Part shown: piece after piece, positions 43,444 through 58,812 of the stretch
Layout of the letters: every line of letters starts with the position of its first letter
How positions within the stretch are numbered: the first letter of the stretch is position 1
DNA from: Nocardia rhamnosiphila NBRC 108938
Lineage (GTDB): Bacteria; Actinomycetota; Actinomycetes; Mycobacteriales; Mycobacteriaceae
Length of the DNA: 64,000 bases
NCBI RefSeq assembly: GCF_000720425.1
Contig: NZ_JOAJ01000006.1
Span: 62,001 to 126,000, forward strand
Reading direction: 5' to 3'
The notes under the pieces: model-generated
Database searches by the model: none
What the model was told of the DNA's origin: nothing
Seen by the model: the letters and a program-made list of their open reading frames with translations, nothing else
Made by a program: the position numbers and the translations under genes

Positions 43444-45507
43444 ATGACTTCTGGGCTGGGTATCAGCATCGGTACGGTGAACGTGGTCTCGGCGCGGGTC
43501 GGGGCGCAGGACGCGCGGCCGGTGGTCCGTACTCGACGGACCGCCGTCGGATTCGACAGCGGGGGCACCGCAAGACTCGGGGGGATCACCCGGTTCTCCA
43601 CGGCGATCAACGAATTCGCCGATCTGGGCCGGAATCCCGAATCGGTGTACGTGGACGGGCGGATCTGGTCGCCGGCCACCATCTTCGCCTCGGTGGTCCA
43701 GGGTCTGGTGACCGCCGAACCGGCGGCCGGTGTGGTCGTCACCCACCCGGCCGGGTACAGCCGCAAACAACTCGGCCTCCTGCGGCAGAGCCTGGATCTC
43801 GCCGGGGTCGGTCACGTCGAGCTGGTCCCGGAGCCGGTGGCCGCCGCGCACTGGCTCGATACCGAACACGGGCCGTTGGATGCCGGGTTCGTCCTGGTCT
43901 ACGACCTGGGCGGGAACAGTCTCGATGTCGCCGTGGTACGGACCGGGCCGGACTGGCCCGATCATCCGGTGGTCGGTAACGCGGTACGGTCCTACGAATT
44001 CGGCGCCCGGCCCCTGGGCGCAATGATCGCGCGCTGTGCCGGCGATCGGGCCATCGGGCCGGTCGAACCGGGTACCGGTGCCGTATCGCTCATGTCCTTC
44101 GTGAACCCGGAGGGCCTGCGGCGTGAACACGTGCGGGATTCCCTGGAGGTGGTCCGGGCCGCGGTGCGCGCGGCCGGTGTCGCGCTCTCCGATATCGATC
44201 GGGTGCTGGTGGTGGGCGGCGCCGCGCGACCTCCGCAGGTGGCCGAAACCCTTGCCGAACTGGGCCTGCCGGTGACCGTCGCCGCCGATTCGGGGCAGTG
44301 CGTCGCACTCGGTGCCGCCGCGATGGCCGCGGAGAGCGTGGCACCGGCGGTCGCGCACGGGGTGAAACATCCGCCGATCTTCTCCGGCGCCGCCCTCTTC
44401 TCGGCGGTCGCCATGTCCGCGGCCACCATCCTCGGCAGCGGCCCGGCGGATACCGAACATCTCGACCAGGACCGGGTCCCGCTGCAGAGTCCGGGGGCGG
44501 TGCAGTTCGAGATCCACGGTGAGGCCCGGGTGGAGCGATCGGACACCGGATGGACGGTGTCCTATGCGCCGTTGCGCGCCCCCGCGATGATCACACCCGC
44601 CGCGACGACACGGCCGTACGGGCCGCCCATGCCCGGTCGTGCACCCGCTCCGGCGAAGTCGGATCCCGAAGGGCCCGCGGACGCCGGGGCCGGAACCCAC
44701 CACACCCGCCAGGACGAACACCCCGAAACCCCGCCGCGGCAAAATGATCCCGCGCGATTCGGCCATCCGCCGTTCGGGCCCGGCGGTGTCGTGCTTCCAC
44801 CGCACACCGGCGCGGGCCCTGATCGACCCGCGCCCGGTGACGACGGACCGGGCGACCCGGAACCGGGTGATCCGCCGGTGGTGGGCGAACCGGGCGGGGA
44901 TACCGATGGTCCGGCCGACGGGGGTGGCGATCCCGGCGGCGCCGGCGGATGGTGGCCCGGTATCGGGACACCGGGCTCCGGCGACAATCCCGCCGGTGGC
45001 GACCGGACCGGCGGTCTCCCCGGTGGCGGCTGGACCGCACCGGGAGGGGCCGGCCCGGGCGACAACAGTGGATACGGTCCGGGAGGCGCCGGCTCGGGTG
45101 ATGACAGCGGCGGTGGTCCGGGTTCGGGCGGAGCGGAGTCGGGTGACAACGGTGGGAGTGGATACGGCCCGGCGGTTCCGGGCGGCTCCGGCGGCACGGA
45201 GAGTGGGGGCGCCGGGTCCGGTGCCGACCCCGGCGGAACCTCCTCCGGCCATTCCGGATCCGATTCCTCCGGCTCGGGTGGATCCGGTGACTCCGGTGGG
45301 TTCGGCGGCTCGCACGGTTTCGGCGGGCATTCGGGTTGGGGCGGCGGGGGTTCGGATTCCGGCGCCTCCGCCGGTGGTTCGGATTCCGCCGGTGGTTCGC
45401 ACAGCAGCGGGTCCGAGTCCAAGGGCTCGAATTCCGGCGGCGACGGTGGGTCCTCCCGCGGCGGAAACTCGCGCGGCGGGTCCTCCCGGGGCGGATCACA
45501 CCGCTGA
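43444..45507 (+). CDS. Hsp70-like ATPase with transmembrane segment and Gly/Ser-rich tail
   Basis: A 687-aa protein. Residues 1-310 form an actin/Hsp70 ATPase domain: phosphate-1 loop GLGISIGTVNVVSARV, phosphate-2 loop LVYDLGGNSLDVAVV, adenosine motif VLVVGGAARPPQVAETL. There is no Hsp70 substrate-binding domain. A single hydrophobic segment (IFSGAALFSAVAMSAATIL, about 315-335) follows, then about 350 residues of Pro/Gly/Ser/Asp low complexity rich in GGxGSG and SRGGSSRGG. It is probably membrane-anchored with the tail outside. ATG at 43444 with GGGATGG upstream. Related proteins occur in nocardiae and mycobacteria; function unproven. Confidence 0.8.
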   Translation: MTSGLGISIGTVNVVSARVGAQDARPVVRTRRTAVGFDSGGTARLGGITRFSTAINEFADLGRNPESVYVDGRIWSPATIFASVVQGLVTAEPAAGVVVTHPAGYSRKQLGLLRQSLDLAGVGHVELVPEPVAAAHWLDTEHGPLDAGFVLVYDLGGNSLDVAVVRTGPDWPDHPVVGNAVRSYEFGARPLGAMIARCAGDRAIGPVEPGTGAVSLMSFVNPEGLRREHVRDSLEVVRAAVRAAGVALSDIDRVLVVGGAARPPQVAETLAELGLPVTVAADSGQCVALGAAAMAAESVAPAVAHGVKHPPIFSGAALFSAVAMSAATILGSGPADTEHLDQDRVPLQSPGAVQFEIHGEARVERSDTGWTVSYAPLRAPAMITPAATTRPYGPPMPGRAPAPAKSDPEGPADAGAGTHHTRQDEHPETPPRQNDPARFGHPPFGPGGVVLPPHTGAGPDRPAPGDDGPGDPEPGDPPVVGEPGGDTDGPADGGGDPGGAGGWWPGIGTPGSGDNPAGGDRTGGLPGGGWTAPGGAGPGDNSGYGPGGAGSGDDSGGGPGSGGAESGDNGGSGYGPAVPGGSGGTESGGAGSGADPGGTSSGHSGSDSSGSGGSGDSGGFGGSHGFGGHSGWGGGGSDSGASAGGSDSAGGSHSSGSESKGSNSGGDGGSSRGGNSRGGSSRGGSHR

Positions 45508-45590
45508 GGCGCCGGGTCACGCCCGACCGGCCCGAGCCGTACCGGAAATCCCGGTGCGGTCCGGCGTCGATTCACGGCACAATCGATGAG

Positions 45591-46388
45591 GTGGACATTG
45601 ACGGGGGCCCACCGCGGCTGATCGCGCTCGATGTGGACGGGACACTGCTGAAAACCGGCACCCGGGTGAGCGCCCGGGTGACCGCCGCCGTGCGCGGGGC
45701 GGTCGGGTCCGGCGCGCACGTCGTGGTGAGTACCGGGCGGACGGTGATCTCGACCCGGCCGGTACTCGACGAACTCGGCCTCGTCCAGGGGCACGCCATC
45801 TGCTCCAACGGCGCCGTCCACATCGATATCGAGCAGGCCCTTCCGGTGTCGGTGCACCATTTCGATCCCGCGCCCGCGGTCACCGCGCTGCGCCGGCTGT
45901 TCCCGGACATGATCTTCACCGCCGAACGGGTCGGTGAGGGATTCTGGGCCACCGGAATGAGTCCTGGCGAGTACTACGCCGGTGGTGACTACGTGGTGGT
46001 CGACGATCTCACCCTGGGCAGCGAACCCACGCCGCGCCTGAACTGCTGGTGGCCCGAGGGCGCCCCGGAGGAGATGCACCGGCTGCTGGAAGGACTGGCA
46101 TTACCGGAGATCAGCTGGGTCTACGGCGAATTCGGCCCCTGGCTCACCATTTCCCGGCACGGGATTTCCAAAGGGTGGGCGCTGGAACATCTGCGCCGCC
46201 TGCTCGATATCCCGCGCGAGGCCACCCTGGCCATCGGGGACGGTTTCAACGACCGCGAAATGTTCGCCTGGGCAGGGCATTCGGTGGCCATGGCGAACGC
46301 GCCGGTCGAACTCCACGGTCTCGTCGACGAGGTCACCGATGATGTCGCGGCCGACGGTGTGGCCGCGGTGCTGGAGCGCTGGTTCTGA
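45591..46388 (+). CDS. HAD hydrolase, Cof-type (subfamily IIB)
   Basis: A 265-aa HAD-superfamily phosphatase. Motif I is LIALDVDGTLL (nucleophile Asp near residue 14), motif II VVSTGRT, motif III Lys in HGISKGWALEHL, motif IV AIGDGFNDREMF. The long insert between motifs II and III is the IIB Cof-type cap. Such enzymes dephosphorylate sugar phosphates, FMN or cofactors. GTG at 45591 has a -10-like CACAAT seven bases upstream (45578-45583). Convergent with the chelatase gene, with hairpins between. Confidence 0.88.
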   Translation: MDIDGGPPRLIALDVDGTLLKTGTRVSARVTAAVRGAVGSGAHVVVSTGRTVISTRPVLDELGLVQGHAICSNGAVHIDIEQALPVSVHHFDPAPAVTALRRLFPDMIFTAERVGEGFWATGMSPGEYYAGGDYVVVDDLTLGSEPTPRLNCWWPEGAPEEMHRLLEGLALPEISWVYGEFGPWLTISRHGISKGWALEHLRRLLDIPREATLAIGDGFNDREMFAWAGHSVAMANAPVELHGLVDEVTDDVAADGVAAVLERWF

Positions 46389-46442
46389 ACTCGGTCCCTG
46401 GGGTTCGGCCGGCGATGTGACGGTTCGGCAGGTGATCCGGGA

Positions 46443-46495
46443 GGCCGGCCGTGTTGTGTATCGGCCGGCCACGCACGGCGGCGGTGTGCGTGGCC
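46443..46495. terminator. Two overlapping hairpins between convergent genes
   Basis: GGCCGGCC (46443-46450) pairs with GGCCGGCC (46463-46470). Alternatively GGCCACGCAC (46467-46476) pairs with GTGCGTGGCC (46486-46495), a perfect 10-bp stem. The two share four bases, so they are mutually exclusive. There is no T-run. Probably a bidirectional terminator. Confidence 0.6.
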
Positions 46496-46513
46496 CGGTA
46501 GTAGTGGCCGACC

Positions 46514-47263
46514 TCAGGCCGACAGTGGCAGTGCGCCCGCGAGCGCGGCGTCATAGCGATCCCAGACGATCTCGGCGAGCGCCGGGTCCGGGCCGAGGAC
46601 CTCGGCGTGCGGGAGCAGCGGATCCTGGTCACGTAGCCGGTCGGTGAGCAGGCCCGGCGCCAGGAACCACGGAGCGACGAGCACGCGGTCGGCGCCGCGG
46701 GCCCGGAGTCGTGCCGTAGCCTGCGCGAGGGAGGGTTCCGCGGTGGCGAAGCACATCTCGGTGGGATGGCCGGTACGGTCCGCGAAACGGCGGGCCAGCC
46801 GGGCGGTCCGGCGGTTCACTGCCGCCGCGGACGAGCCGACGGCGGCCAGGGCGATACCGAGCCGTGCGGACGGGCCGTCCCAGCCGTGCCGCTCGCGCAC
46901 CGCCCGCACCCGCTCGTACAACACCTCGATCAGCCGCGGGTCGGCGCCGAACACCTCGGCCTGGGTGAGCCGCAACCTCGGGTTGCGGGCGGTGGCCCCG
47001 GCCAGCAGTGCGGGCAGGTCCACGCGGGCGTGGAAGGCGCTGCCCAGCAGTAGCGGGACCACCACCGCGGCGGTTTCACCGGTGGCCGCGACCGAGTCGA
47101 GTACCTGCCCGACCGAGGGCGCGTTCAGGTCGAGGAAGGCGAGGTGGGCCGGAGTCCCGGGGCGCGCGGCCCGCACCCGGTCCACGAGCGCGGCGACGGT
47201 GGCGGCCGACCGGGGATCCCGGCTGCCGTGCGCCACCGCTACCAACGTGGGGCCGCCCGGCAT
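46514..47263 (-). CDS. CbiX/SirB-type chelatase
   Basis: A 249-aa two-domain chelatase of the CbiX/SirB family, which inserts Fe2+ into sirohydrochlorin (siroheme) or Co2+ (cobalamin). Both halves show the family pattern: VAVAHGSRDPRSAATVAAL with the metal-binding His, HARVDLPAL with a second His, and VLVAPWFLAPGLLTDRL. As the last gene of the sulfate-reduction operon it most likely makes siroheme for the sulfite reductase encoded at the front. ATG at 47263 overlaps the cysN stop (TGATG). Confidence 0.9.
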   Translation of the reverse strand: MPGGPTLVAVAHGSRDPRSAATVAALVDRVRAARPGTPAHLAFLDLNAPSVGQVLDSVAATGETAAVVVPLLLGSAFHARVDLPALLAGATARNPRLRLTQAEVFGADPRLIEVLYERVRAVRERHGWDGPSARLGIALAAVGSSAAAVNRRTARLARRFADRTGHPTEMCFATAEPSLAQATARLRARGADRVLVAPWFLAPGLLTDRLRDQDPLLPHAEVLGPDPALAEIVWDRYDAALAGALPLSA

Positions 47264-48591
47264 CAGGCCTCGGTTCCGACCTCGACCGCGGTGAGCACAT
47301 CCCCGACCAGGCCCGCCGCCAGCGTGTTCCCGCCCGCCGGGTCGATGAGCAGGAAACTGCCGGTATGCCGGTTGGTCCGGTAGTCGTCGGCCGCGATCGC
47401 CTCCGCGACCCGCACCGAGATCCGGCCGATATCGTTGAGCGACAGCGTTTCCGGGTTCGGTTCGGCGGTCAGGCGCTGTTCGTCGAAACGTTCGGTGAGC
47501 GCGCCCACGATCGCCTGCGTGGTACGGGTGCCGTGCTTGAGCAGCAGCCGGGCGCCGGGGCGCAGCGGTTTGTCACCGAGCCAGCACACGGTGGCGTCGA
47601 AGGTATCGACAGGTTCCGGCGCGTCGCCGGGTGAGGCGATGGTGTCACCGCGTGAGATATCGACCTCGTCGGTCAGCACCAGCGTGACACTGCGGCCGGC
47701 CTGGGCGACGGCCAGTTCGCCGTCGGGGGTGTCGATCCGTTCGACGGTCGTGCGGATACCGGAGGGCAGCACCACCACCTCGTCGCCGGGGGCCACCGAG
47801 CCCGCCGCGATCTGACCCGCGTAACCGCGGTAGTCCGGGTATTCCGGCGTCCGCGGCCGGATGACGTATTGGACCGGGAAGCGCAGCCCCACCGCGTGTT
47901 CGCCGGTGTTGTCCGCGTCCACCGGTACCGATTCGAGGTGTTCGATCAGCGACGGGCCGCTGTAGTACGGGGTCTTGTCGGAGCGGGCGGCGATATTGTC
48001 GCCGTGCAGCGCCGACACCGGGATCTCGAGGACATCCTCGTCCGACCAGCCGAGGGTCCGGGTGAGGTGGGAGAACTCCGCGGAGATCTCCGCGAAGACC
48101 TTGGCGGCCGCGGCCTGCCGGCCCTGTTCGCTGGGCTCGTCCCCGCCGATGAGGTCGATCTTGTTCACCGCCAGTACCAGCTTGGGCACACCCAGCAGCG
48201 CCAGGACCGCCGCATGCCGCCGTGTCTGCTCGATCACGCCCTTGCGTGCGTCCACCAGCAGGATCACCAGCTGGGCGGTCGACGCGCCGGACACGGTGTT
48301 GCGGGTGTACTGCACATGACCGGGGGTATCGGCCAGCACGAACGACCGCTGCGGGGTCGCGAAGTACCGGTAGGCGACATCGATGGTGATGCCCTGCTCA
48401 CGTTCGGCCCGCAGACCGTCCACCAGCAGCGACAGGTCGGGGGTGGACAGGCCTTTGTCCACCGACGCCCGGGTCACCGCGTCGATCTGGTCGGCGAGTA
48501 CGGATTTGGTGTCGTAGAGCAGGCGTCCGACCAGAGTGGACTTGCCGTCGTCGACAGAACCGGCGGTGGCCAGCCTCAATAGGTCGGACAT
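47263..48591 (-). CDS. cysN: Sulfate adenylyltransferase subunit 1 (GTPase)
   Basis: GTPase subunit of ATP sulfurylase. It has 442 aa with elongation-factor-type motifs: SVDDGKSTLVGRLLYDT, DTPGHVQYTRN, NKIDL, then two beta barrels. The protein ends after the second barrel and has no CysC (APS kinase) domain, unlike fused mycobacterial CysNC. That fits an APS-reducing pathway. ATG at 48591 is one base after the cysD stop. Confidence 0.95.
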   Translation of the reverse strand: MSDLLRLATAGSVDDGKSTLVGRLLYDTKSVLADQIDAVTRASVDKGLSTPDLSLLVDGLRAEREQGITIDVAYRYFATPQRSFVLADTPGHVQYTRNTVSGASTAQLVILLVDARKGVIEQTRRHAAVLALLGVPKLVLAVNKIDLIGGDEPSEQGRQAAAAKVFAEISAEFSHLTRTLGWSDEDVLEIPVSALHGDNIAARSDKTPYYSGPSLIEHLESVPVDADNTGEHAVGLRFPVQYVIRPRTPEYPDYRGYAGQIAAGSVAPGDEVVVLPSGIRTTVERIDTPDGELAVAQAGRSVTLVLTDEVDISRGDTIASPGDAPEPVDTFDATVCWLGDKPLRPGARLLLKHGTRTTQAIVGALTERFDEQRLTAEPNPETLSLNDIGRISVRVAEAIAADDYRTNRHTGSFLLIDPAGGNTLAAGLVGDVLTAVEVGTEA

Positions 48592-48592
48592 A

Positions 48593-49525
48593 TCAGAAGT
48601 AACCCTCTCGTTTGCGGTCTTCCATGGCGGCTTCGGAGACCCGGTCGTCGCCACGGGTCGCGCCGCGTTCGGTCAGCCGGGAGGCGGCGACCTCGGCCAG
48701 GATGGCCTCGTTGTCGGCGGCGTCGGACAGGATGGCCCCGGTGGTGGAACCGTCGCCGACGGTCCGGTACCGCACCGAACGGGTCTCGAGTGCCTCGCCG
48801 TCGCGCGGACCACCCCAGACACCGGGGGTCATCCACATACCGTCGCGCTGGTACACCGGCCGCTGGTGTGCGTAGTAGATGGTGGCCAGGTCCACGTCCT
48901 CGCGGGCGATGTAGCGCCAGATATCGAGTTCGGTCCAGTTCGACAGCGGGAACACGCGAACGTGTTCGCCCGGAGCGTGCCGGCCGTTGTACAGGTTCCA
49001 CAGCTCGGGTCGCTGGCGTTTGGGATCCCACTGGCCGAAGGCGTTGCGCAGCGAGAAGATCCGCTCCTTGGCGCGGGAGCGCTCCTCATCGCGGCGACCA
49101 CCGCCGAAGACCGCGTCGAAGCGGTTCTCGGTGATGGCGTCCAGCAGCGGTACGGTCTGCAGCGGGTTGCGGATACCGTCCGGGCGTTCGGCGAGCCGGC
49201 CGTCGGCGAGATAGTCCTCCACGCTCGCCACGTGCAGGCGCAGGCCGTACTTCTCGACCACATGGTCGCGGAACTCGAGCACCTCGGGCAAGTTGTGCCC
49301 GGTGTCCACGTGCAGCAGCGCGAACGGCAGCGGCGCCGGCCAGAAGGCCTTCAGTGCCAGATGCAGCAGGACGGTGGAGTCCTTACCGCCGGAGAACAGG
49401 ATGACCGGGCGTTCGAATTCGCCCGCGACCTCACGGAAGATATGGATTGCTTCCGATTCCAGCGCGGCGAGAGTGTCGAAATCGGAGAGGCCGACGGAAC
49501 GTTCGGTGGTGATGGCTTCGGTCAT
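48593..49525 (-). CDS. cysD: Sulfate adenylyltransferase subunit 2
   Basis: Catalytic subunit of ATP sulfurylase: ATP plus sulfate gives APS and pyrophosphate. It has 310 aa. The PP-loop SGGKDSTVLLHLA is near residue 50, with LLHVDTGHNLPEVLEFRD and the GGRRDEERSRAKER motif, and ends in the usual MEDRKREGYF. ATG at 49525 overlaps the cysH stop (ATGA). Confidence 0.97.
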   Translation of the reverse strand: MTEAITTERSVGLSDFDTLAALESEAIHIFREVAGEFERPVILFSGGKDSTVLLHLALKAFWPAPLPFALLHVDTGHNLPEVLEFRDHVVEKYGLRLHVASVEDYLADGRLAERPDGIRNPLQTVPLLDAITENRFDAVFGGGRRDEERSRAKERIFSLRNAFGQWDPKRQRPELWNLYNGRHAPGEHVRVFPLSNWTELDIWRYIAREDVDLATIYYAHQRPVYQRDGMWMTPGVWGGPRDGEALETRSVRYRTVGDGSTTGAILSDAADNEAILAEVAASRLTERGATRGDDRVSEAAMEDRKREGYF

Positions 49526-50286
49526 GAGGCGTGTAACCCGCATTCAGTCTTGGCGAGGCCGGCCCAGCGGCCGCTTCGCGGATCGGAACCCGGCTCCGGC
49601 TTCCGCGTGCACGGAGCGCAGCCGATGGACGGATATCCCTCCTCCACCAGGGGATTGACGAGAATCGAATGCTTTTCGATGTAGTCCTGCATCTCCTCGT
49701 CGGACCAGGGGGCGATCGGGTTGATCTTCACCAGCCCGAAGCCCTCGTCGAAGGAGATGAGCGGGGCGTTGGCCCGGGTGGGCGCCTCGACCCGGCGGAT
49801 GCCGGTGACCCACGCGTTGTAGGGCGCCAGCGAATTGCGCAGCGGCACCACCTTGCGCAGCCGGCAGCATTCGTTGGCGTCGCGGGCGAACAGATCCTTG
49901 CCCAGCAGCGCGTCCTGTTCGGCGACCGTCTGCTCGGGGCGGGCGTTGACCACGTTCACCCCGTACACCGCCTCCACGGCGTCCCGGGTGCCGATGGTCT
50001 CGGCGAAGTGGTAGCCGGTGTCCAGGAACAGGACGTCAACACCCGGCCGGACCTGGGCGGCCAACTGCACCAGCACCCCGTCCTGCATATTCGAGGCGAC
50101 GATATAGCCGCTGCCGAAGTTCTCGTCGGTCCAGCGCAGCAGCTCGTCGGCCGTGGCGTCCGGGCCGAGTTCGGCGGCACCGCGCTCGGCCAGCGCCCGG
50201 AGTTCATCGGCGCTCAGTTTGGTGGGCAGCTGTTTCTGCTCAGTGGTCACAGTGGGTTCTCCCGTCACAACGCTCGCGGGTTTCAT
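49522..50286 (-). CDS. cysH: Adenylylsulfate (APS) reductase, assimilatory
   Basis: Reduces APS to sulfite with thioredoxin. It has 254 aa. The PAPS-reductase fold (MQDGVLVQLAAQV, DTGYHFAETI) carries both cysteine pairs of the [4Fe-4S] APS-reductase type, NECCRLRKV and IGCAPCTRK, and the C-terminal KTECGLH with the catalytic Cys. The iron-sulfur ligands mark it as APS rather than PAPS reductase, agreeing with the absence of CysC. ATG at 50286 overlaps the sirA stop (ATGA). A few codons on, GTGACCACTGAG is another possible start. Confidence 0.95.
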   Translation of the reverse strand: MKPASVVTGEPTVTTEQKQLPTKLSADELRALAERGAAELGPDATADELLRWTDENFGSGYIVASNMQDGVLVQLAAQVRPGVDVLFLDTGYHFAETIGTRDAVEAVYGVNVVNARPEQTVAEQDALLGKDLFARDANECCRLRKVVPLRNSLAPYNAWVTGIRRVEAPTRANAPLISFDEGFGLVKINPIAPWSDEEMQDYIEKHSILVNPLVEEGYPSIGCAPCTRKPEPGSDPRSGRWAGLAKTECGLHAS

Positions 50287-52016
50287 CGCAGATCGGCTTC
50301 CTCGGCGCGAACGGCCCACTGCGCGAACCGTTCCCCGCCGTCGCGGTGTTTGACGAAATTGCGGACCACACGCTCGATGTAGTCACCGAGTTCGGCGCTG
50401 GTCACCTTGTGCTGGCGCAGTTTGCGTCCGAAGGCGCTGTCCAGGCCGAGGCTGCCACCCAGATGAACCTGGAAGCCCTCCACCTGATTCCCGGCGCCGT
50501 CGTCGACCAGCTGGCCCTTGAAACCGATATCGGCGATCTGCGACCGGCCGCAGGAGTTCGGGCAGCCGTTGATATTGATGGTGATCGGGACGTCGAGTTC
50601 GGCGTTGATATCGGCCAGCCGCTGTTCCAGCTCCGGCGCCAGCACCTGGGAGCGTTTGCGGGTCTCGACGAAGGACAGTTTGCAGAATTCGATCCCGCTG
50701 CAGGCCAGCAGGTTGCGCCGCCAGGCCGAGGGACGCGCCTGCAAGCCCAGCGGTTCCAGCTCGGCGATCAGCTGATCGACCTTGTCGTCGGCCACATCGA
50801 GCACAATGAGCTTCTGGTAGGGCGTGAACCGGATCCGGTCCGACCCGGCGCGCTCGACCGCGTCGGAGACCGCGGTGAGGACGCTGCCCGAGACCCGTCC
50901 GGCAATGGGGGAGAAGCCGACCGCGTTGAGTCCGTTGCGCAGCCGCTGCACGCCGACGTGGTCGATGGGGCGGCTGGGCTGCTCCGGCGCCGGGCCGTCG
51001 ATCAGCTTGCGCTTCAGGTACTCGTCCTCGAGCACCTGGCGGAACTTCTCGATACCCCAGTCCTTGATCAGGAATTTCAGTCGCGCCTTGGTGCGCAGCC
51101 GGCGATACCCGTAGTCGCGGAACAGCGAGACGACTGCCTCCCAGACCTCCGGCACCTCGTCCAGCGGAACCCAGGCGCCCACCCGCTGGGCCAGCATGGG
51201 GTTGGTGGACAGTCCACCACCGACCCAGAGGTCCAGACCGGGCCCGTGCTCGGGATGCTCGACGCCGATGAACGCGACGTCGTTGATCTCGTGCACCACG
51301 TCCTGCTGACCGGAGATAGCGGTCTTGAACTTGCGCGGCAGGTTGGAGTATTCCTTCTTGCCGATGTAGCGGCGCACGATCTCCTCGACCGCGGGCGTGG
51401 TGTCGAGAACCTCGTTCAGTGATTCCCCGGCCAGCGGTGAGCCGAGCACCACGCGCGGGCAGTCGCCGCAGGCCTCGGTGGTCTGCAGGCCCACACTCTC
51501 GATCCGCCGCCAGATCTCCGGGACGTTCTCGATCTCGATCCAGTGGTACTGGAGGTTCTCACGGTCGGAGAGGTCGGCGGTATCGCGGGCGAACTCGGTG
51601 GAGATACCGCCGAGGGTGCGCAGCTGCGCGACGTTCAGCGCGCCACCGTCGCAGCGGATCCGCATCATGAAGTACTTGGCTTCGATCAGGTCGGTGTTCT
51701 CGTCGCCTGTCCAGGTGCCGTCGTAACCCTGCTCGCGCTGGGTGTAGAGACCCCACCAGCGGAAACGGCCGCGCAGATCGCCCTTGTCGATACTGTCGAA
51801 ACCGTTCTTCGAGTAGATGTTCTCGATCCGGGTGCGGACGTTGAGCGGGTTGTCGTCCTTCTTGGACTGCTCGTTGGGATTGAGCGGTTCGCGATAGCCG
51901 AGCGCCCACTGGCCCTCGGCGCGGCGGCGCACCGGTTTGCCGGTACGGGCGCGGGTGGGCCGCTCGGCGGGGGCCTCGGGCTTCGCGGTGGGATCGGCGT
52001 CGGTGCTCGACGTCAT
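50283..52016 (-). CDS. sirA: Ferredoxin-dependent sulfite reductase
   Basis: Siroheme/[4Fe-4S] enzyme that reduces sulfite to sulfide. It has 577 aa. Cluster/siroheme cysteines are in CSGIEFCKLSF and NGCPNSCGRSQ. The nitrite/sulfite reductase half-domain repeat is visible (LQYHWIEIENVPEIWRRIE, and the matching C-terminal half), and YTQREQGYDGTW with GDCPR may hold the Tyr-Cys pair of mycobacterial SirA. ATG at 52016 has AGGAG (52028-52024) upstream. The RBS can be sequestered by the Cys-codon region of the leader ORF, so expression should depend on cysteine supply. Confidence 0.95.
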   Translation of the reverse strand: MTSSTDADPTAKPEAPAERPTRARTGKPVRRRAEGQWALGYREPLNPNEQSKKDDNPLNVRTRIENIYSKNGFDSIDKGDLRGRFRWWGLYTQREQGYDGTWTGDENTDLIEAKYFMMRIRCDGGALNVAQLRTLGGISTEFARDTADLSDRENLQYHWIEIENVPEIWRRIESVGLQTTEACGDCPRVVLGSPLAGESLNEVLDTTPAVEEIVRRYIGKKEYSNLPRKFKTAISGQQDVVHEINDVAFIGVEHPEHGPGLDLWVGGGLSTNPMLAQRVGAWVPLDEVPEVWEAVVSLFRDYGYRRLRTKARLKFLIKDWGIEKFRQVLEDEYLKRKLIDGPAPEQPSRPIDHVGVQRLRNGLNAVGFSPIAGRVSGSVLTAVSDAVERAGSDRIRFTPYQKLIVLDVADDKVDQLIAELEPLGLQARPSAWRRNLLACSGIEFCKLSFVETRKRSQVLAPELEQRLADINAELDVPITININGCPNSCGRSQIADIGFKGQLVDDGAGNQVEGFQVHLGGSLGLDSAFGRKLRQHKVTSAELGDYIERVVRNFVKHRDGGERFAQWAVRAEEADLR

Positions 52017-52022
52017 GAAGTG

Positions 52023-52034
52023 GCTCCTGCTTGT
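52023..52034 (-). promoter_or_regulatory. sirA Shine-Dalgarno region, target of leader pairing
   Basis: ACAAGCAGGAGC (minus strand) includes the AGGAG of sirA and is complementary, with one bulge and one mismatch, to GCGCCTGTTGT at 52175-52165, the Cys-Cys codon region of the leader ORF. Pairing would hide the ribosome binding site. Confidence 0.5.
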
Positions 52035-52054
52035 GGTCGTACATCCGGGCTGAA

Positions 52055-52077
52055 GGCGCGAGGGACTGGCTCGCGCC
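52055..52077 (-). other. Perfect 8-bp hairpin in the sirA leader
   Basis: GGCGCGAG, seven-base loop, CTCGCGCC, between the leader ORF and the sirA RBS. It may be part of the attenuator or a pause/termination structure. No T-run. Confidence 0.55.
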
Positions 52078-52143
52078 CGCGGTGTCAGCGGGCCGAAATC
52101 CTCGAAGGGGAATCGCCGGAAATCCGGAGAGGGCGCAGCTGAG

Positions 52144-52236
52144 CTACCGGGCGGAACCGGGCAGACAACAGGCGCTGCAGACGCGCTTGTAGTCGACGTG
52201 GCGACGTGCCACAAGTCGTACTCCGAATGCGCGCAT
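52144..52236 (-). CDS. Cysteine-rich leader peptide (attenuator uORF) of the sulfate reduction operon
   Basis: A 30-codon ORF 128 bases before sirA. The product starts MRAFGVRLVARRHVDYKRV and ends CSACCLPGSAR, with three Cys codons in five, two adjacent. The ATG at 52236 is seven bases after a -10-like CACAAT (52249-52244) with no RBS, so it is leaderless. Such Cys-ending leaderless ORFs before cysteine genes are established attenuators in mycobacteria. Ribosomes slowing at the Cys codons when cysteine is scarce would keep the CCTGTTGT segment from pairing with the sirA RBS. The wiring here is inferred from complementarity. Confidence 0.75.
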   Translation of the reverse strand: MRAFGVRLVARRHVDYKRVCSACCLPGSAR

Positions 52237-52243
52237 GCGACCT

Positions 52244-52249
52244 ATTGTG
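52244..52249 (-). promoter_or_regulatory. -10 box for leader peptide and sulfate reduction operon
   Basis: CACAAT on the minus strand, seven bases before the leader ATG. It is the only plausible promoter element before the operon. The -35 is not clear. Confidence 0.45.
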
Positions 52250-52333
52250 CCATGCCGGACCCCGCGTTCCGACCGCCCTACCAGTATTTCCCGCGAACAA
52301 GCGGGAAATTCCCTGGTTCCGCGAGTCTATTTG

Positions 52334-52345
52334 TGACGGCCGTCA
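52334..52345. promoter_or_regulatory. Perfect 12-bp palindrome between divergent genes
   Basis: TGACGGCCGTCA, flanked by AT-rich sequence, lies about 90 bases before the sulfate-reduction leader transcript and about 60 before the MerR-type promoter. Candidate binding site of an unknown regulator. Confidence 0.4.
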
Positions 52346-52395
52346 TATTTTCTCTGGTGGGGTATCCGGGGATGCGTCCCATGGGCTGGGCGGGG

Positions 52396-52426
52396 TTGAC
52401 CTCGAGTTCGCTCGAGGTTGCAGGCT
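52396..52426 (+). promoter_or_regulatory. MerR-type promoter of the SnoaL-like gene
   Basis: TTGACC (52396-52401), a 19-bp spacer, CAGGCT (52421-52426), seven bases, ATG. The spacer holds ACCTCGAG-TTCG-CTCGAGGT, a perfect 8-bp dyad. The overlong spacer plus central dyad is the hallmark of MerR-family activated promoters. Confidence 0.75.
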
Positions 52427-52433
52427 TCGGGTC

Positions 52434-52862
52434 ATGACGATCGACACCGCGCATACCGGTCACCATCCCGCCGATACCGATTCCGAGATCGCCGCCCTCC
52501 ACGCCGTGGTCGCCGCCGTGGCGCGCGCCCAGCGCGACGAGGACGTCGACGGCTTCACCCGGCTCTTCCGCGACGACGCGATCTGGACCACCGGCCACGG
52601 CGCGCGGCTCTACGGGCGGGCGGCCGTCGCCGAGTTCACCGCCCGGGTGCTGCCCGGGGCGACCGCGCACGGCCACGCCACCTATGAAGTCGAACACATC
52701 CTGTTCCTGCGGCCCGATGTGGCCGCGGTGAAGGTGCGGCAGCGCTACTTCACCACCGCGGGCGACCTCGACAGCGAAGGCACCCCGATGTACGTCATGA
52801 CCAAGGAGGACGGCCACTGGCTTCTCACCGCGAACCAGAACACCCCGATCGTCGAGGACTGA
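52434..52862 (+). CDS. SnoaL-like / SgcJ-EcaC family protein
   Basis: A 142-aa NTF2-fold protein: an N-terminal helix (SEIAALHAVVAAVARAQRDED), then DGFTRLFRDDAIWTTGHGARLYGRAAVAEFTA and a beta-rich C-terminus (AAVKVRQRYFT, GHWLLTANQNTPIV) typical of the SgcJ/EcaC group. These small proteins bind or modify small molecules; the true activity is rarely known. ATG at 52434 seems leaderless. It shares its unusual promoter with the methyltransferase gene at 32600. hemW starts 24 bases after it. Confidence 0.85.
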   Translation: MTIDTAHTGHHPADTDSEIAALHAVVAAVARAQRDEDVDGFTRLFRDDAIWTTGHGARLYGRAAVAEFTARVLPGATAHGHATYEVEHILFLRPDVAAVKVRQRYFTTAGDLDSEGTPMYVMTKEDGHWLLTANQNTPIVED

Positions 52863-52886
52863 TCCGCGCCCGGTCACACTGGAGGG

Positions 52887-54095
52887 GTGAGTACCGCCGC
52901 CACCACCACCTCGCACACCGACGCCTCCGCTCCGGTGCTGCGTGGATTCGGCGGCGGTCCCTTCGGGATCTACGTGCACGTACCGTTCTGCGCGACCCGC
53001 TGCGGATACTGCGATTTCAACACCTACACCGCCGGTGAACTGGGCACTTCGGCGTCCACGAAGTCCTGGTCGGAGGGGCTGCGCGCGGAACTGGCGACCG
53101 CCGCCCGGGAGTTCGCCGCGCTGCCCACCGCGACGCCCCCGGTGGCGACGGTGTTCGTGGGCGGCGGCACCCCCTCGCTGCTCGGTGGAGACGGGCTCGC
53201 GGCCGTGCTCGACGCGATCCGCGCGGAATTCGACCTCGCCCCGGACGCCGAGGTCACCACCGAATCGAATCCGGAATCGACTTCGCCGGCGTTCTTCGAC
53301 AAGATCCGGGCGGCCGGGTTCACCCGTGTCTCGCTCGGGATGCAATCGGCGGCCCCGCATGTGCTGGCCGTGCTCGACCGCACCCATACGCCCGGCCGGG
53401 CGGTCGCCGCCGCCCGGGAGGCACGAGCGGCCGGCTTCGACCACGTGAACCTCGACCTCATCTACGGCACTCCGGGCGAACGCGACAGCGACCTGGACGC
53501 CAGCCTGGACGCGGTACTGGACGCCGGGGTCGACCACGTGTCGGCGTATTCGCTCATCGTCGAAGACGGGACCGCCCTGGCCCGCCGGGTGCGCCGCGGC
53601 GAACTGCCCGCACCCGACGAAGACGTGCTGGCCACCCGCTACGAGCGGATCGACGCACGACTCGAAGCCGCCGGCCTCACCTGGTATGAGGTCTCGAACT
53701 GGGCTTCCGGCGACGCCGCACGCTGCCGGCACAACCTCGGTTACTGGGACGGCGGCGACTGGCTCGGCGCCGGACCGGGCGCACACAGCCACCTCGGCGG
53801 CGTGCGCTGGTGGAATGTGAAGCATCCGGCCCGCTACGCCGACCGCGTCGCCCACGGTGGTCTGCCCGCCGCCGACTGGGAGGACCTCACCGCCGCCGAC
53901 CGGTACCTCGAACGCGTCATGCTCGCCCTGCGCCTGCGCACCGGGCTGCCGCTGGCCGATCTCGACGCGGACGGGAACGCCGCCGCCCGGCGCATCGCGG
54001 GCGACGGGCTGGTCACCATCGTGGACGACCGGCTGATCCTCACCGACCGCGGGCGATTGCTGGCCGACGGGGTGGTCCGGGGTCTGGTCGGCTGA
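52887..54095 (+). CDS. hemW: Heme chaperone HemW (radical SAM, HemN-like)
   Basis: A 402-aa radical SAM protein. The cluster motif CATRCGYC gives Cys35, 39 and 42, GGGTPS follows for SAM binding, and NPES, SLGMQS and the C-terminal HemN domain (WYEVSNWA, RCRHNLGYW) are present. It lacks the extra N-terminal part of true coproporphyrinogen dehydrogenase HemN, so HemW (heme delivery to membrane proteins) is the better name, although annotations often say hemN. GTG at 52887, six bases after CACACT, may be leaderless. Confidence 0.9.
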   Translation: MSTAATTTSHTDASAPVLRGFGGGPFGIYVHVPFCATRCGYCDFNTYTAGELGTSASTKSWSEGLRAELATAAREFAALPTATPPVATVFVGGGTPSLLGGDGLAAVLDAIRAEFDLAPDAEVTTESNPESTSPAFFDKIRAAGFTRVSLGMQSAAPHVLAVLDRTHTPGRAVAAAREARAAGFDHVNLDLIYGTPGERDSDLDASLDAVLDAGVDHVSAYSLIVEDGTALARRVRRGELPAPDEDVLATRYERIDARLEAAGLTWYEVSNWASGDAARCRHNLGYWDGGDWLGAGPGAHSHLGGVRWWNVKHPARYADRVAHGGLPAADWEDLTAADRYLERVMLALRLRTGLPLADLDADGNAAARRIAGDGLVTIVDDRLILTDRGRLLADGVVRGLVG

Positions 54096-54215
54096 GCGCC
54101 GTTCGGGACGGATCATCGACCGGACGGTCGGCTGCCTGCTGTGTATCTTGTTCGAGCACCCGCGACGCAGACTTGCGTTCGGTGACGAGCACCGGGTGAA
54201 TCCGTCGGGCGCAAT

Positions 54216-54236
54216 TACACTGGGTGACGAACCCAG
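54216..54236 (+). promoter_or_regulatory. -10 box and leader hairpin before hrcA
   Basis: TACACT (54216-54221) is a good -10. CTGGGT-GACGA-ACCCAG (54220-54236) forms a hairpin overlapping it and the start of the hrcA leader. No CIRCE element is visible. Confidence 0.45.
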
Positions 54237-54315
54237 CGGTATGTGAGCCGGGTTCACAGGTAGCGGTGCGCCGGGCGACCACCTCGACGCGCAGCGGAGC
54301 TAGGAGGTGGGGTCG

Positions 54316-55347
54316 ATGTCGAGCACCGAGGATCGGCGCTTCGAGGTCCTGCGAGCGATCGTCGCCGACTACGTCTCCACCAAGGAACCCATCGGTTCGA
54401 AAACCCTGGTCGAACGGCACAATTTGGGCGTTTCCAGCGCGACGGTGCGCAACGATATGGCGGTCCTGGAAGCCGAGGGTTACATCACCCAGCCCCATAC
54501 GAGTTCCGGCCGCATCCCCACCGACAAGGGCTACCGTCAGTTCGTGGACCGGATCGCCGAGGTCAAACCGCTGTCGGTCGCCGAACGCAAGGCGATCATG
54601 CAGTTCCTCGAATCGGGGGTCGATCTCGACGATGTCCTGCGTCGCGGCGTACGCCTACTCGCTCAGCTGACCCGCCAGGTCGCGGTCGTCCAGTACCCCA
54701 CCGTTTCCGCGTCCACCGTGCGCCATCTGGAAGTGGTGGCCCTCAATCCCGCGCGATTGCTGCTGGTGGTGATCACCGACACCGGCCGCGTCGACCAGCG
54801 CATCGTCGAACTCGGCACCGTGGTCGACGACGAGGATCTCGCCGCGCTGCGCGGCATGCTGGGTGCGGCCATGGACGGCAAACGTCTCGCCGCGGCCTCC
54901 GCCGCCGTCGCCGAACTGCCCGAGCAGGCGCCGCCCAAACTCCGTGACGTGCTGATCAAGGTTTCGACGGTCATGGTCGAGACGCTGGTCGAACATCCCG
55001 AGGAACGCCTGGTCCTGGGCGGCACCGCCAATCTCACCCGCAATGCCGGCGACTTCGGCATCCACGGCTCCCTGCGTACCGTGCTCGAGGCGCTGGAGGA
55101 GCAGGTCGTGGTCCTGAAACTGCTGGCCGCCGCCCAGCAGCCCGGCATGGTGACGGTGCGGATCGGCGAGGAGACCCAGGTCGAGGAGATGCGCGGCACC
55201 TCCGTCGTCACCACCGGCTACGGCGCCGCGGGCGCGGTCCTCGGCGGTATGGGAGTCCTGGGCCCGACCCGGATGGACTACCCGGGCACCATCGCCTCGG
55301 TGGCGGCGGTCGCCCGCTATATCGGCGAGGTCCTCGCCGAACGGTAG
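54316..55347 (+). CDS. hrcA: Heat-inducible transcription repressor HrcA
   Basis: Repressor of chaperonin genes through CIRCE sites. It has 343 aa. The N-terminal winged helix ([57 protein letters not shown]) and the C-terminal GAF-like dimerisation region are standard. ATG at 54316 with AGGAGG upstream; a GTG three codons before is less well placed. It is followed 298 bases later by dnaJ, as in mycobacteria (hrcA-dnaJ2). No CIRCE was found in front of the gene, so autoregulation is not supported here. Confidence 0.96.
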
Positions 55348-55363
55348 GCCTGTGCTTATTTGC

Positions 55364-55400
55364 GGCGCCTTCGGCGCCTCGACCCTTTGAGGGCCTCGTA
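55364..55400 (+). terminator. Tandem hairpins after hrcA
   Basis: GGCGCC-TTC-GGCGCC (55364-55378) followed by CCCT-TTG-AGGG. GC-rich without a T-run, the kind of terminator common in actinobacteria. It suggests hrcA and dnaJ are separate transcripts. Confidence 0.5.
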
Positions 55401-55533
55401 AGGCTCGGCACCGGGTGCCTGCGCAACCGGGGCGCGGCCGGTGGATTTCGACTGCCGGTAGTGCGGGCTTGCCCGCCGCGGAAGGGGGCTTGCGTGGTTC
55501 GCTGTTAGGCTCGTGTTCTCCGCCGAGATAAAG

Positions 55534-55553
55534 TTGAGTCGACCCGACTAAGC
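55534..55553 (+). promoter_or_regulatory. Possible HAIR half-site and -10 before dnaJ
   Basis: TTGAGT-N7-ACT resembles the left half and the spacing of the HspR element HAIR (CTTGAGT-N7-ACTCAAG), but the right half decays to ACTAAGC. TAAGCT (55549-55554) could be a -10 box. Weak. Confidence 0.25.
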
Positions 55554-55645
55554 TCACGGGCGGGCGGCTCAATCCATCAGGAGCCACGCGGCCGGTCGTG
55601 GGAAGCCGGAGCCGTGGACAGCGACCAAGGACTAAGAGAACTCAA

Positions 55646-56803
55646 GTGGCACGGGACTACTACGGATTGCTCGGTGTAGGCAGGGACGCCTCCGACCAAG
55701 AGCTCAAACGCGCGTATCGCAAGCTGGCTCGCGAACTGCATCCCGATGTGAACCCGGACGAAGCGGCGCAGACCCGGTTCAAGGAGGTCTCCGCGGCGTA
55801 CGAGGTGCTGTCGGATCCGGAGAAGCGCCGCATCGTCGATATGGGCGGTGACCCGCTGGACGCCGGTGGCGGCGCCGGCGGTTTCAGCGGTGCCGGTTTC
55901 GGCGGTCTGGGCGATGTGTTCGAGGCGTTCTTCGGCGGGATGAGCGGCGGCGGCGGTACCGGCGCCCGCAAACCGCGTGGACGGGTGCAGCCGGGCGCGG
56001 ATTCGCTGGTGCGGACCCGGCTGAGCCTGGCCGAATGCGCGGTGGGAGTCACCAAGCATCTGACCGTCGACACCGCGATCCTGTGCGACCTGTGCCAGGG
56101 CGCCGGGACCAACGGCAACTCCAGCCCGGTGCGCTGTGAGACCTGCGGCGGCGCCGGTGAAGTGCAGTCGGTGCAGCGATCGTTCCTCGGTCAGGTACTG
56201 ACCTCGCGTCCGTGCCCGACCTGCCGTGGTGCCGGCGAGACGATCCCGGATCCCTGCCACAAATGCGGCGGCGACGGCCGGGTGCGGGCGCGGCGGGAGA
56301 TCGCGGCCCCGATTCCGGCCGGGGTGGCCAACGGGATGCGGGTGCGCCTGGCCGCGCAGGGTGAGGTCGGCCCCGGTGGCGGGCATGCCGGCGACCTGTA
56401 TGTGGAGATCGTGGAACAGCCGCACGATGTGTTCGTTCGCGACGGTGACGACCTGCACTGCACCGTCCGGGTTCCGATGGTGGACGCGGCACTGGGCACC
56501 ACGGTGGTGATCGACACCATCATGGACGGTCCCACCGAACTGACCATCGGTCCCGGTACCCAGCCCGGGGAGATCTCGGTGCTGCGCGGGCACGGTATGC
56601 CGCGGCTGCGTTCCAGTTCCCGCGGTGACCTGATGGCGCACCTGGATATCGTCGTGCCGACCAAGCTGGACAGTAAGCAGACCGATCTGCTGCGCAAGTA
56701 CAAGGGTTTGCGGGCCAAGGACAAAGCCGAGGTGATGTCGGCGCAGTCCGAGCACAACAGCGGCCTGTTCGCCCGGTTGCGCGCGTCGTTCAGCGGTCGC
56801 TGA
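55646..56803 (+). CDS. dnaJ: Chaperone DnaJ
   Basis: Hsp40 co-chaperone that stimulates DnaK. It has 385 aa. J domain with HPD at residues 32-34, Gly/Phe-rich linker ([15 protein letters not shown]), four CxxCxGxG zinc repeats ([32 protein letters not shown]), and the C-terminal client domains. It is the copy paired with hrcA (DnaJ2 type), not that of the dnaK operon. GTG at 55646 places [10 protein letters not shown] right after the start. The RBS is poor. Confidence 0.96.
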
Positions 56804-56808
56804 CCTCG

Positions 56809-57549
56809 ATGGCCGCCACGGTCTTCTACCTGGACGAGATCCCGGAACCGGGCGCCGTCGCGGTGCTCGACGGCGCGGAGGGCCGGCACGCGGCCACGGT
56901 GCGCCGGATCCGGGCCGGCGAACCCGTCACGCTCTCCGACGGCCGAGGTGTGCTCGCGGATTCGGAAGTCGTCGCCGCGCAGAAGAACCGGCTCGAACTG
57001 CTGGTCCGGGACCGTCGCCGCGCCGAGCCGGCGTCGCCGGCGGTCACCGTGGTCCAGGCGTTGCCGAAGTCGGAGCGTTCCGAGCTGGCCGTCGAGCTGA
57101 TGACCGAGGCCGGTGCGGATGTGATCGTGCCGTGGCAGGCCGCGCGCTGCGTCTCGAACTGGGAGGCCAAAGCGGACAAGGGCGTGGCCAAATGGCGGTC
57201 GGCGGCGAAGGCCGCGGCCCGGCAGTCCCGCCGCGCCTACATCCCCGAGGTCACGGCCCTGCACCGGACGCCGGAGGTGGTGGACGCCGTGCGTGCGGCG
57301 ACGGCACAGGGCGCGGTGGTGGCGGCCCTGCACGAATCGGGCGGGGGTGCCTTCACCGAGCTGCCGTGGCGCACCGCCGCGGCGATCACGCTGATCGTCG
57401 GCCCGGAGGGCGGTCTCGACGACGCCGAGCTGACCGCTCTGAGCGCGGCGGGAGCCGAGGTGGTCCGGCTCGGACCCACCGTGCTGCGCACCTCCACGGC
57501 TGCCGCGGTGGCGCTCGGGGCGCTGGGGGCGCTCACCACCCGCTGGTGA
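56809..57549 (+). CDS. rsmE: 16S rRNA m3U1498 methyltransferase RsmE
   Basis: Methylates N3 of U1498 in 16S rRNA with SAM. It has 246 aa. An N-terminal PUA-like domain and a SPOUT knot domain are evident, the latter with LIVGPEGGLDDAEL and RLGPTVLRTSTAA, the diagnostic C-terminal knot motifs. It starts with ATG five bases after dnaJ, so it is probably co-transcribed with it, the same arrangement as in many bacteria. Confidence 0.95.
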   Translation: MAATVFYLDEIPEPGAVAVLDGAEGRHAATVRRIRAGEPVTLSDGRGVLADSEVVAAQKNRLELLVRDRRRAEPASPAVTVVQALPKSERSELAVELMTEAGADVIVPWQAARCVSNWEAKADKGVAKWRSAAKAAARQSRRAYIPEVTALHRTPEVVDAVRAATAQGAVVAALHESGGGAFTELPWRTAAAITLIVGPEGGLDDAELTALSAAGAEVVRLGPTVLRTSTAAAVALGALGALTTRW

Positions 57550-57620
57550 ACAGCCGGTCGTAGCGGTCCGCTACGCCGTGGTCGGCCGGAATTCCACTGG
57601 GACGTGTCGGGGCCGGGAGT

Positions 57621-57626
57621 TAGACT
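57621..57626 (+). promoter_or_regulatory. -10 box before phoH
   Basis: TAGACT would start transcription near 57633, downstream of two potential GTG starts. This argues for the GTG at 57712 and an 80-base leader. Confidence 0.45.
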
Positions 57627-57711
57627 CGTGCCAGCGACAGCATTCGCACCCATCTTTACCAGCGGCGCGTCACCGCAGCTCCGAGACCGGAAAGCAGGCC
57701 ATAGCGACTAC

Positions 57712-58812
<1,101 letters not shown>

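Follow-up and report, generated by a model that had tools for sequence, protein, structure and literature searches.

Cysteine-codon leaders were predicted upstream of mycobacterial cys operons as early as 2005 (Seliverstov, PMC1262725), and Shell et al. (2015) described, upstream of nirA/Msmeg_4527, a small ORF that is conserved and lies on a leaderless mRNA (PMC4633059, Fig 7); the 70S ribosome occupancy mentioned in the relevant section of that paper concerns the cysA2 locus, not nirA. According to papers that cite it, Canestrari 2020 reported cysteine-dependent attenuation of translation by such ORFs in M. smegmatis (PMC9031893, PMC13236596), and on the basis of that work six ORFs of this kind were predicted in M. 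tuberculosis (eLife 2022, PMC9094748). Among the matches listed by literature searches, no title was recognizable as a study of this leader in Nocardia. Here, a 64,000-nt stretch of the genome of Nocardia rhamnosiphila NBRC 108938 (contig NZ_JOAJ01000006.1, positions 62,001 to 126,000 of the forward strand; hereafter the window) was analyzed, in which a Cys-rich leader ORF (uORF) lies directly upstream of sirA. The reading that we favor, with a probability of roughly 0.78, is cysteine attenuation of the Ms4527A type, in which stalling of ribosomes on a leaderless uORF would expose the Shine-Dalgarno (SD) sequence of sirA. A known mycobacterial device for cysteine control would thus be placed in Nocardia, before the same operon.

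The uORF (52236-52144, minus strand) starts with ATG and its translation is MRAFGVRLVARRHVDYKRVCSACCLPGSAR. Re-reading of the sequence confirmed both the coordinates and the C-S-A-C-C-L-P-G-S-A-R end given in an earlier interpretation made from the letters alone (hereafter the sequence-only reading), and the SD of sirA is present where that interpretation had placed it. Counted from the first base of its stop codon, the uORF lies 130 nt from the sirA ATG, and 115 nt separate the uORF stop from the SD. The Cys codons, C20, C23 and C24, are clustered near the end of the uORF, and the gene order after the leader is sirA-cysH-cysD-cysN, followed by a gene for a CbiX-type chelatase (Table 1). Compared with NCBIfam models, the peptide scored 49.7 bits against NF042936.1, 'Ms4527A family Cys-rich leader peptide' (curated cut-off 45), with a match spanning profile positions 1-21 of 21, and fell under the cut-off of NF042934.1, 'putative leader peptide'. 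The NF042936 cut-off was also passed by one CSASC-type Nocardia leader, two Mycobacterium-like leaders and one Rhodococcus leader. The existence of a curated model for the family contradicts the previous statement that the leader is too short for routine annotation; for genome annotation, this means that an existing model already recognizes it. Together with the earlier mycobacterial literature, the NF042936 match makes the locus a Nocardia instance of a named family and not a new mechanism: judged by its peptide, the window leader corresponds in Nocardia to Ms4527A of mycobacteria, the small ORF before nirA/Msmeg_4527.

Table 1. Features of the leader region and of the downstream operon, in order of transcription; positions are those of the window.
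Feature	Position	Strand	Basis or remark
Perfect inverted repeat ATTTCCCGC-N6-GCGGGAAAT, possible operator	52286..52309	minus	50-73 nt upstream of uORF start
TCGGAA, possible -35 (weak candidate), 17 nt before -10	52267..52272	minus	Conserved block
-10 hexamer CACAAT, in TGGCACAAT	52244..52249	minus	Conserved at fixed spacing
Cys-rich leader ORF (uORF)	52144..52236	minus	30 codons, TAG stop 52146-52144; putative leaderless start
uORF segment CGCGTCTGC (codons R18-V19-C20; RNA CGCGUCUGC), candidate SD partner, CSACC clade	52177..52185	minus	RNAalifold, 25 leaders
Cys codons	TGC 52179-52177 (C20), TGT 52170-52168 (C23), TGT 52167-52165 (C24)	minus	Sequence
Possible lower stem GCTGA 52089-52085 x TCAGC 52053-52049	52049..52089	minus	Around hairpin
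Intergenic 8-bp hairpin GGCGCGAG/CTCGCGCC	52055..52077	minus	Covariation
sirA Shine-Dalgarno AGGAG, in GCAGGAGC	52024..52028	minus	Sequence; sirA starts 52016
sirA-type sulfite/nitrite reductase, operon gene 1	50283..52016	minus	Pfam PF01077, PF03460
cysH (APS/PAPS reductase), approximate start	49522..50286	minus	PF01507; NF002537 over cut-off
cysD	48593..49543	minus	TIGR02039 471.2 bits, cut-off 396.6
cysN, approximate start	47263..48594	minus	TIGR02034 517.6 bits, cut-off 336.1
CbiX-type chelatase, next gene in run	46514..47263	minus	PF01903 129.2 bits

Conservation of the leader was assessed in sirA loci from two sources, 40 relatives (37 with a match, of which 30 loci were taken) and contigs of named genomes (the best 80 of 568 confirmed). 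Upstream of sirA, 101/110 loci carried the leader motif; since the two sets overlap, these are not independent species counts. Among the misses, L013 and L082 had merely 9 and 45 bases of upstream sequence, L025-L030 came from other families, distant order-level relatives with 59-64% SirA identity, and the remaining one, L109, was Rhodococcoides trifolii. When 298 genomes from the order were searched with the peptide, 254 gave matches at a loose threshold (E up to 0.1); 29 of the 30 best loci carried the motif and a downstream sirA homologue in the same orientation, L136 being without a motif match, and three of the 29 (L113, L114 and L116) repeat genomes of the relatives set. Nine of the 101 leader loci, in which the start of sirA was not found by pattern, were dropped to leave 92. 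Single-sequence fold ensembles were computed for 81 of these 92 leaders, after removal of identical or over-long ones; leaving out L044 and 18 non-Nocardia leaders gave 62, which were thinned to 33 Nocardia leaders (alignment A1). Codons were compared in a set of 62 leaders made up of 33 from Nocardia, 8 from Rhodococcus and allies, and 21 Mycobacterium-like ones.

The codons matching C20 and C24 encode Cys in 62/62 leaders, so that these two Cys codons, whose conservation in related genomes the sequence-only reading had named as a test, are indeed kept. The intermediate position, C23, is Cys in 15/33 Nocardia leaders and Ser in 16/33. The C24 codon is TGT in every one of the 62 leaders, against 630 TGC and 12 TGT codons for Cys in sirA itself (92 genes from Nocardia, Rhodococcus and allies, some redundant). 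Within the peptide core RRH[VI]DxKRVC, residues R, R, H, D, R and V are invariant in 62/62 leaders and their codons vary synonymously, and GTC at V14 is invariant in 33/33 Nocardia leaders. That the uORF is a chance ORF without function, as its length of just 30 codons might suggest, retains practically no probability in view of the curated family match, the deep conservation with synonymous change and the fixed spacing to the promoter; conservation had already refuted this possibility.

The same data bear on the proposal that the nascent peptide, RRHVDxKRV, acts in the exit tunnel to aid the pause at the Cys codons, as an arrest peptide would. The invariance of the core residues over synonymous codons speaks for it, as does the presence of a similar core in a single-Cys leader (L130) that passes NF042934. 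Conservation of the core may, however, serve RNA structure or start efficiency instead, and the invariant GTC at V14 points to RNA constraint as well, leaving a contribution of the nascent peptide unlikely.

The first base of the -10 hexamer lies 13 nt from the uORF ATG in the window, and the distance between hexamer and start is 12-13 nt in 86/92 loci (13 nt in 78 and 12 nt in 8). In the 21 loci classed as Mycobacterium-like, a genus identity assigned by inference, the box TGGCA[CGT]AAT was found in 21/21, as TGGCACAAT in 10, TGGCAGAAT in 6 and TGGCATAAT in 5. The box is positioned as for a leaderless start, in agreement with the leaderless-type ORF recognized previously, and this widely kept geometry would fit a transcript beginning at the uORF start codon. 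TCGGAA, located farther upstream, could serve as a -35 element, but it is a weak candidate because a consensus promoter scan missed it. The inverted repeat at 52286-52309 is the sole perfect match in the genome, and a TTTCCC/TTCTCC..GGAAA pattern was present in 31/33 Nocardia loci and 7/9 other loci tested, mostly at the same distance; it is possibly the operator of some sulfur regulator. Upstream of it, a TATGA-N6-TCACA sequence at window positions 52332-52347 (-111), found in 32/33 Nocardia loci at -109 to -111, resembles a CRP/GlxR-type site.

According to the sequence-only reading, the SD is hidden when ACAAGCAGGAGC (52034-52023) pairs with the Cys-Cys codons, GCGCCTGTTGT (52175-52165), and would be freed by a ribosome held at these codons. 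The complementarity exists in the window (10 pairs, one mismatch and one bulge), and the LEU element of actinobacteria, in which a run of leucine codons was proposed to pair with the leuA SD, offers a precedent (PMC1262725). In the 33 Nocardia leaders, however, 66.6% of cells were paired versus 65.5% in shuffles, a small gain of 1.1 points even if merely 5/500 shuffles matched it, and the comparison for covariation, which had been suggested together with the pairing, revealed zero two-sided changes along with four further types of pair, just as shuffles do. The UUGU:ACAA pairs of the arm form in 7, 3, 32 and 3 of 33 leaders, the last with 10 gapped. Codon 23 is not Cys in 18/33 leaders, which breaks U67:A325 so that the core of the pairing is lost, while CAGGAGC at the sirA SD is invariant throughout the 33 aligned leaders. 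A register without the bulge was 78.1% paired, with a covariation score matched by 11/500 shuffles, again a small gain, and with one two-sided change, a number reached by 151/500 shuffles.

Energies of the Cys/SD duplex were -12.91 for own and -12.92 for swapped partners (P 0.51), and in the window the duplex between the 27-nt Cys region and the SD reached -13.0 kcal/mol, while 1000 shuffles averaged -14.7 (P 0.70). Ranking of the pairing against other leader windows gave no support either. Within the ensemble predicted for the window, the Cys region took a share of 0.02 in SD pairing; shares of 0.5-0.8 in single-sequence ensembles of some close relatives indicate that the idea is not absurd, just unsupported. 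In the CSACC-type consensus fold the 52175-52165 segment is only the second-choice partner of the SD, and it becomes the main one once the uORF is trimmed to about codon 19 or just past. A switch of exactly this form, unsupported by conservation, covariation, swap and shuffle tests, is thus quite improbable, and the pairing, attractive as it is, appears not to be what evolution kept. Of the cysteine attenuator with RBS pairing that had been proposed, the attenuator is supported by family membership, conservation of ORF, Cys codons and promoter, and synteny with sirA, whereas the pairing finds no support in covariation, swap and shuffle tests.

Consensus folds of thinned leaders, 25 of CSACC type and 16 of CSASC type, were obtained with RNAalifold. 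The partner of the SD was CGCGUCUGC, codons 18-20, in the CSACC-type consensus, and GUCG-A-CUUC, codons 14-16, in the CSASC-type one. Striking as they are, the RNAalifold partners CGCGUCUGC and GUCGACUUC both join near-invariant segments, and they were not retained as supported partners. When the 5' end of the CSACC alignment was progressively trimmed, the partner of the SD shifted to the 52175-52165 segment and then to UCUGCC, and the unpaired fraction of the SD rose from 0.21 to about 0.5 once the Cys codons were trimmed away. In these models, such behavior is what a stalling switch would need, but shuffles of uORF codon order do likewise, giving SD accessibility as low in 21/40 cases, so that the CSACC partner is no more than a candidate. 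For the CSASC set, codon-order shuffles were as low in 3/40, and trimming of codons 14-16 gave an SD accessibility of about 0.40, unlike the behavior of the CSACC set.

A scan of ribosome positions over the 33 leaders yielded SD opening energies of 4.54 kcal/mol for the free leader and 4.45 kcal/mol with a ribosome stalled at the last Cys; the gain exceeded 0.5 in 10/33, and the window value went from 2.93 to 2.96 kcal/mol, so that on average stalling did not increase SD accessibility. Nocardia uORFs were less complementary to the SD than their synonymous recodings (mean z +1.48; P<0.05 in 0/33), a comparison that is probably confounded by base composition, and the results for 12 other loci were mixed, with P<0.05 in 2, both from Rhodococcus. 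The candidates for hiding the SD in Nocardia are the uORF codons to C20 (CGCGUCUGC) or the 52175-52165 register, neither with statistical support.

The perfect 8-bp intergenic hairpin at 52077-52055, which is as the sequence-only reading described it, is a better supported RNA element than these SD partners: 90.9% of cells are paired among the 33 leaders, with two-sided change at 2 pairs (7 such cells). In the possible lower stem around it, GCUGA x UCAGC, 68.7% of cells are paired and 4/5 pairs show two-sided change (10 two-sided cells), values reached by 4/500 shuffles for the percentage paired and by 123/500 for the number of two-sided pairs. Neither the hairpin nor the lower stem touches the SD. 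Two copies of UCAGC, one past the uORF stop and one ahead of the SD, flank GCUGA (window 52142-52049), so that mutually exclusive pairings are possible. Another candidate, a hairpin at the stop codon (columns 73-77 x 89-93), had 93.3% of cells paired with no two-sided change and was discarded. An Rfam search of 44000-58000 with E up to 1 returned two matches, both under the gathering score and taken as chance.

No intrinsic terminator, defined as a GC-rich hairpin plus a U run, was found in 51950-52450. This bears on the alternative of attenuation at the level of transcription, by which translation of the uORF would govern the access of Rho or RNA polymerase instead of SD exposure. The long intergenic region (115 nt from stop to SD) is compatible with this route, and the 2005 study, which saw that conserved terminator hairpins are missing in front of mycobacterial cys operons, put forward Rho-dependent termination, if only as a weak prediction (PMC1262725). 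Against it stand the terminator scan and the later description of the M. smegmatis case as translation control (PMC13236596, PMC9031893), and we regard transcription-level attenuation as rather unlikely here. Stalling that frees the SD is, by analogy with the mycobacterial systems, the best model in kind for Nocardia.

Under this model of translational attenuation, the leaderless mRNA would begin at the uORF start codon and ribosomes would translate the 30-codon peptide, slowing at C20, C23 and C24 whenever charged tRNA-Cys runs short. Stalled there, a ribosome would keep the leader RNA out of a fold that hides the sirA SD some 115 nt past the uORF stop. Low cysteine would then lead to production of sirA-cysH-cysD-cysN, and plentiful cysteine would damp the output. 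For translation, stalling and the response to cysteine, this scheme draws on the mycobacterial work.

The RNA between leader and SD was also inspected in other lineages. No more than 30 nt from the SD, an exact anti-SD 5-mer (GCTCC, CTCCT or TCCTG) was present in 17/21 Mycobacterium-like leaders, in 0/33 Nocardia leaders and in 0/18 Rhodococcus-like or other loci, 10/18 of the latter having an anti-SD farther off; all of these are raw counts without a chance level. In Mycobacterium-like leaders the anti-SD forms GCUCC(U)/(A)GGAGC in 85% of cells, the left arm of the SD hairpin is complementary to a noncoding AGCUGG that follows the uORF (88.1%), and in most rows an intervening GGACAGC is complementary to GCUGUCU of the Cys codons. 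The SD hairpin was set aside as a covarying element, and so was the competing CAGCUGG x CCAGCU, both being conserved with little covariation; it is inspection, rather than covariation, that suggests a sequester/anti-sequester switch in these leaders. Between leader and sirA, Mycobacterium-like loci L118-L140 contain noncoding blocks of deep conservation, CAGCTGGC and GGATCTGCGCCGCCGGA among them, which adjoin the local SD hairpin.

As far as these alignments reach, sensor and promoter are conserved and the RNA read-out is lineage-dependent: promoter, peptide core and Cys codons change very little from Nocardia to Rhodococcus-like and Mycobacterium-like genomes. A broader reading, tentative and on the whole unlikely, is that one conserved cysteine sensor has been wired to lineage-specific RNA outputs, maybe with a pause at a chosen UGU that the nascent peptide assists. 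The element hiding the SD would then have been rebuilt by lineage, as a near anti-SD in most Mycobacterium-like leaders and as a long-range element, or none, in Nocardia. The invariant UGU at the last Cys, set against the UGC preference of sirA, and the peptide core held at the amino-acid level allow for such a peptide-assisted pause; if true, cysteine sensing may exceed the mere counting of Cys codons. The combination of a fixed sensor, a changing RNA read-out, an invariant UGU and a conserved peptide provides a way to ask which part of the attenuator senses.

Other leaders were encountered in the course of the analysis. L130 (G240:C1:5543109-5543189, minus), with the core RRHVDYKRV and one Cys (VASALC), lies upstream of a sirA homologue and falls below NF042936. 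A second Cys leader of the same genome as the window, L146 (G000:C5:142466-142522, minus), reads MQNHRELMLTRRRTVDLCRLGGCCCLCR with a GTG start and precedes a DUF4395 gene and a rhodanese gene. It scored 32.5 bits against NF042933 Ms5788A, under the cut-off of 45, and stood at the border of NF042934 (cut-off 27), with 27.2 bits in one scoring and 25.9 in another. Of the further candidates from this genome, the NF042936/NF042934 matches L142, L144, L148 and L149 were rejected because they fall in different frames or genes, while L143 and L145, Cys-rich in look, had no leaderless-type start, and the ORFs following them did not look like cysteine genes by eye.

Compared with known systems, L146 recalls the cysA2/Msmeg_5788 case of the 2015 paper (PMC4633059). 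The leaders predicted in 2005 carry Cys runs before cys operons of Mycobacterium and P. acnes and before cbs of B. longum; they resemble the present one in being Cys-codon leaders predicted without a terminator, and differ in that Nocardia farcinica is named, in the pertinent part of that study, only among the searched genomes (PMC1262725). The LEU element of leuA is similar in that a run of codons is proposed to base-pair with the SD of the gene that follows, and different in its leucine codons and pseudoknot, no such pairing being supported in the Nocardia leader (PMC1262725). With the polycysteine leaderless sORF attenuators known from M. smegmatis (Canestrari 2020), to which the family name Ms4527A refers through Ms4527, the Nocardia leader would share sensor design and expected response to cysteine. 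Within the Ms4527A family (NF042936), Nocardia leaders have 3 or 2 Cys (CSACC, CSASC) versus 4 (CSCCC) in many Mycobacterium-like ones, the window ORF extends four codons beyond CLP to its stop, and the Nocardia intergenic RNA is without the near anti-SD of most Mycobacterium-like leaders. They have in common the peptide core, the clustered Cys codons, the TGGCA[CGT]AAT box before the start and the place before sirA/nirA.
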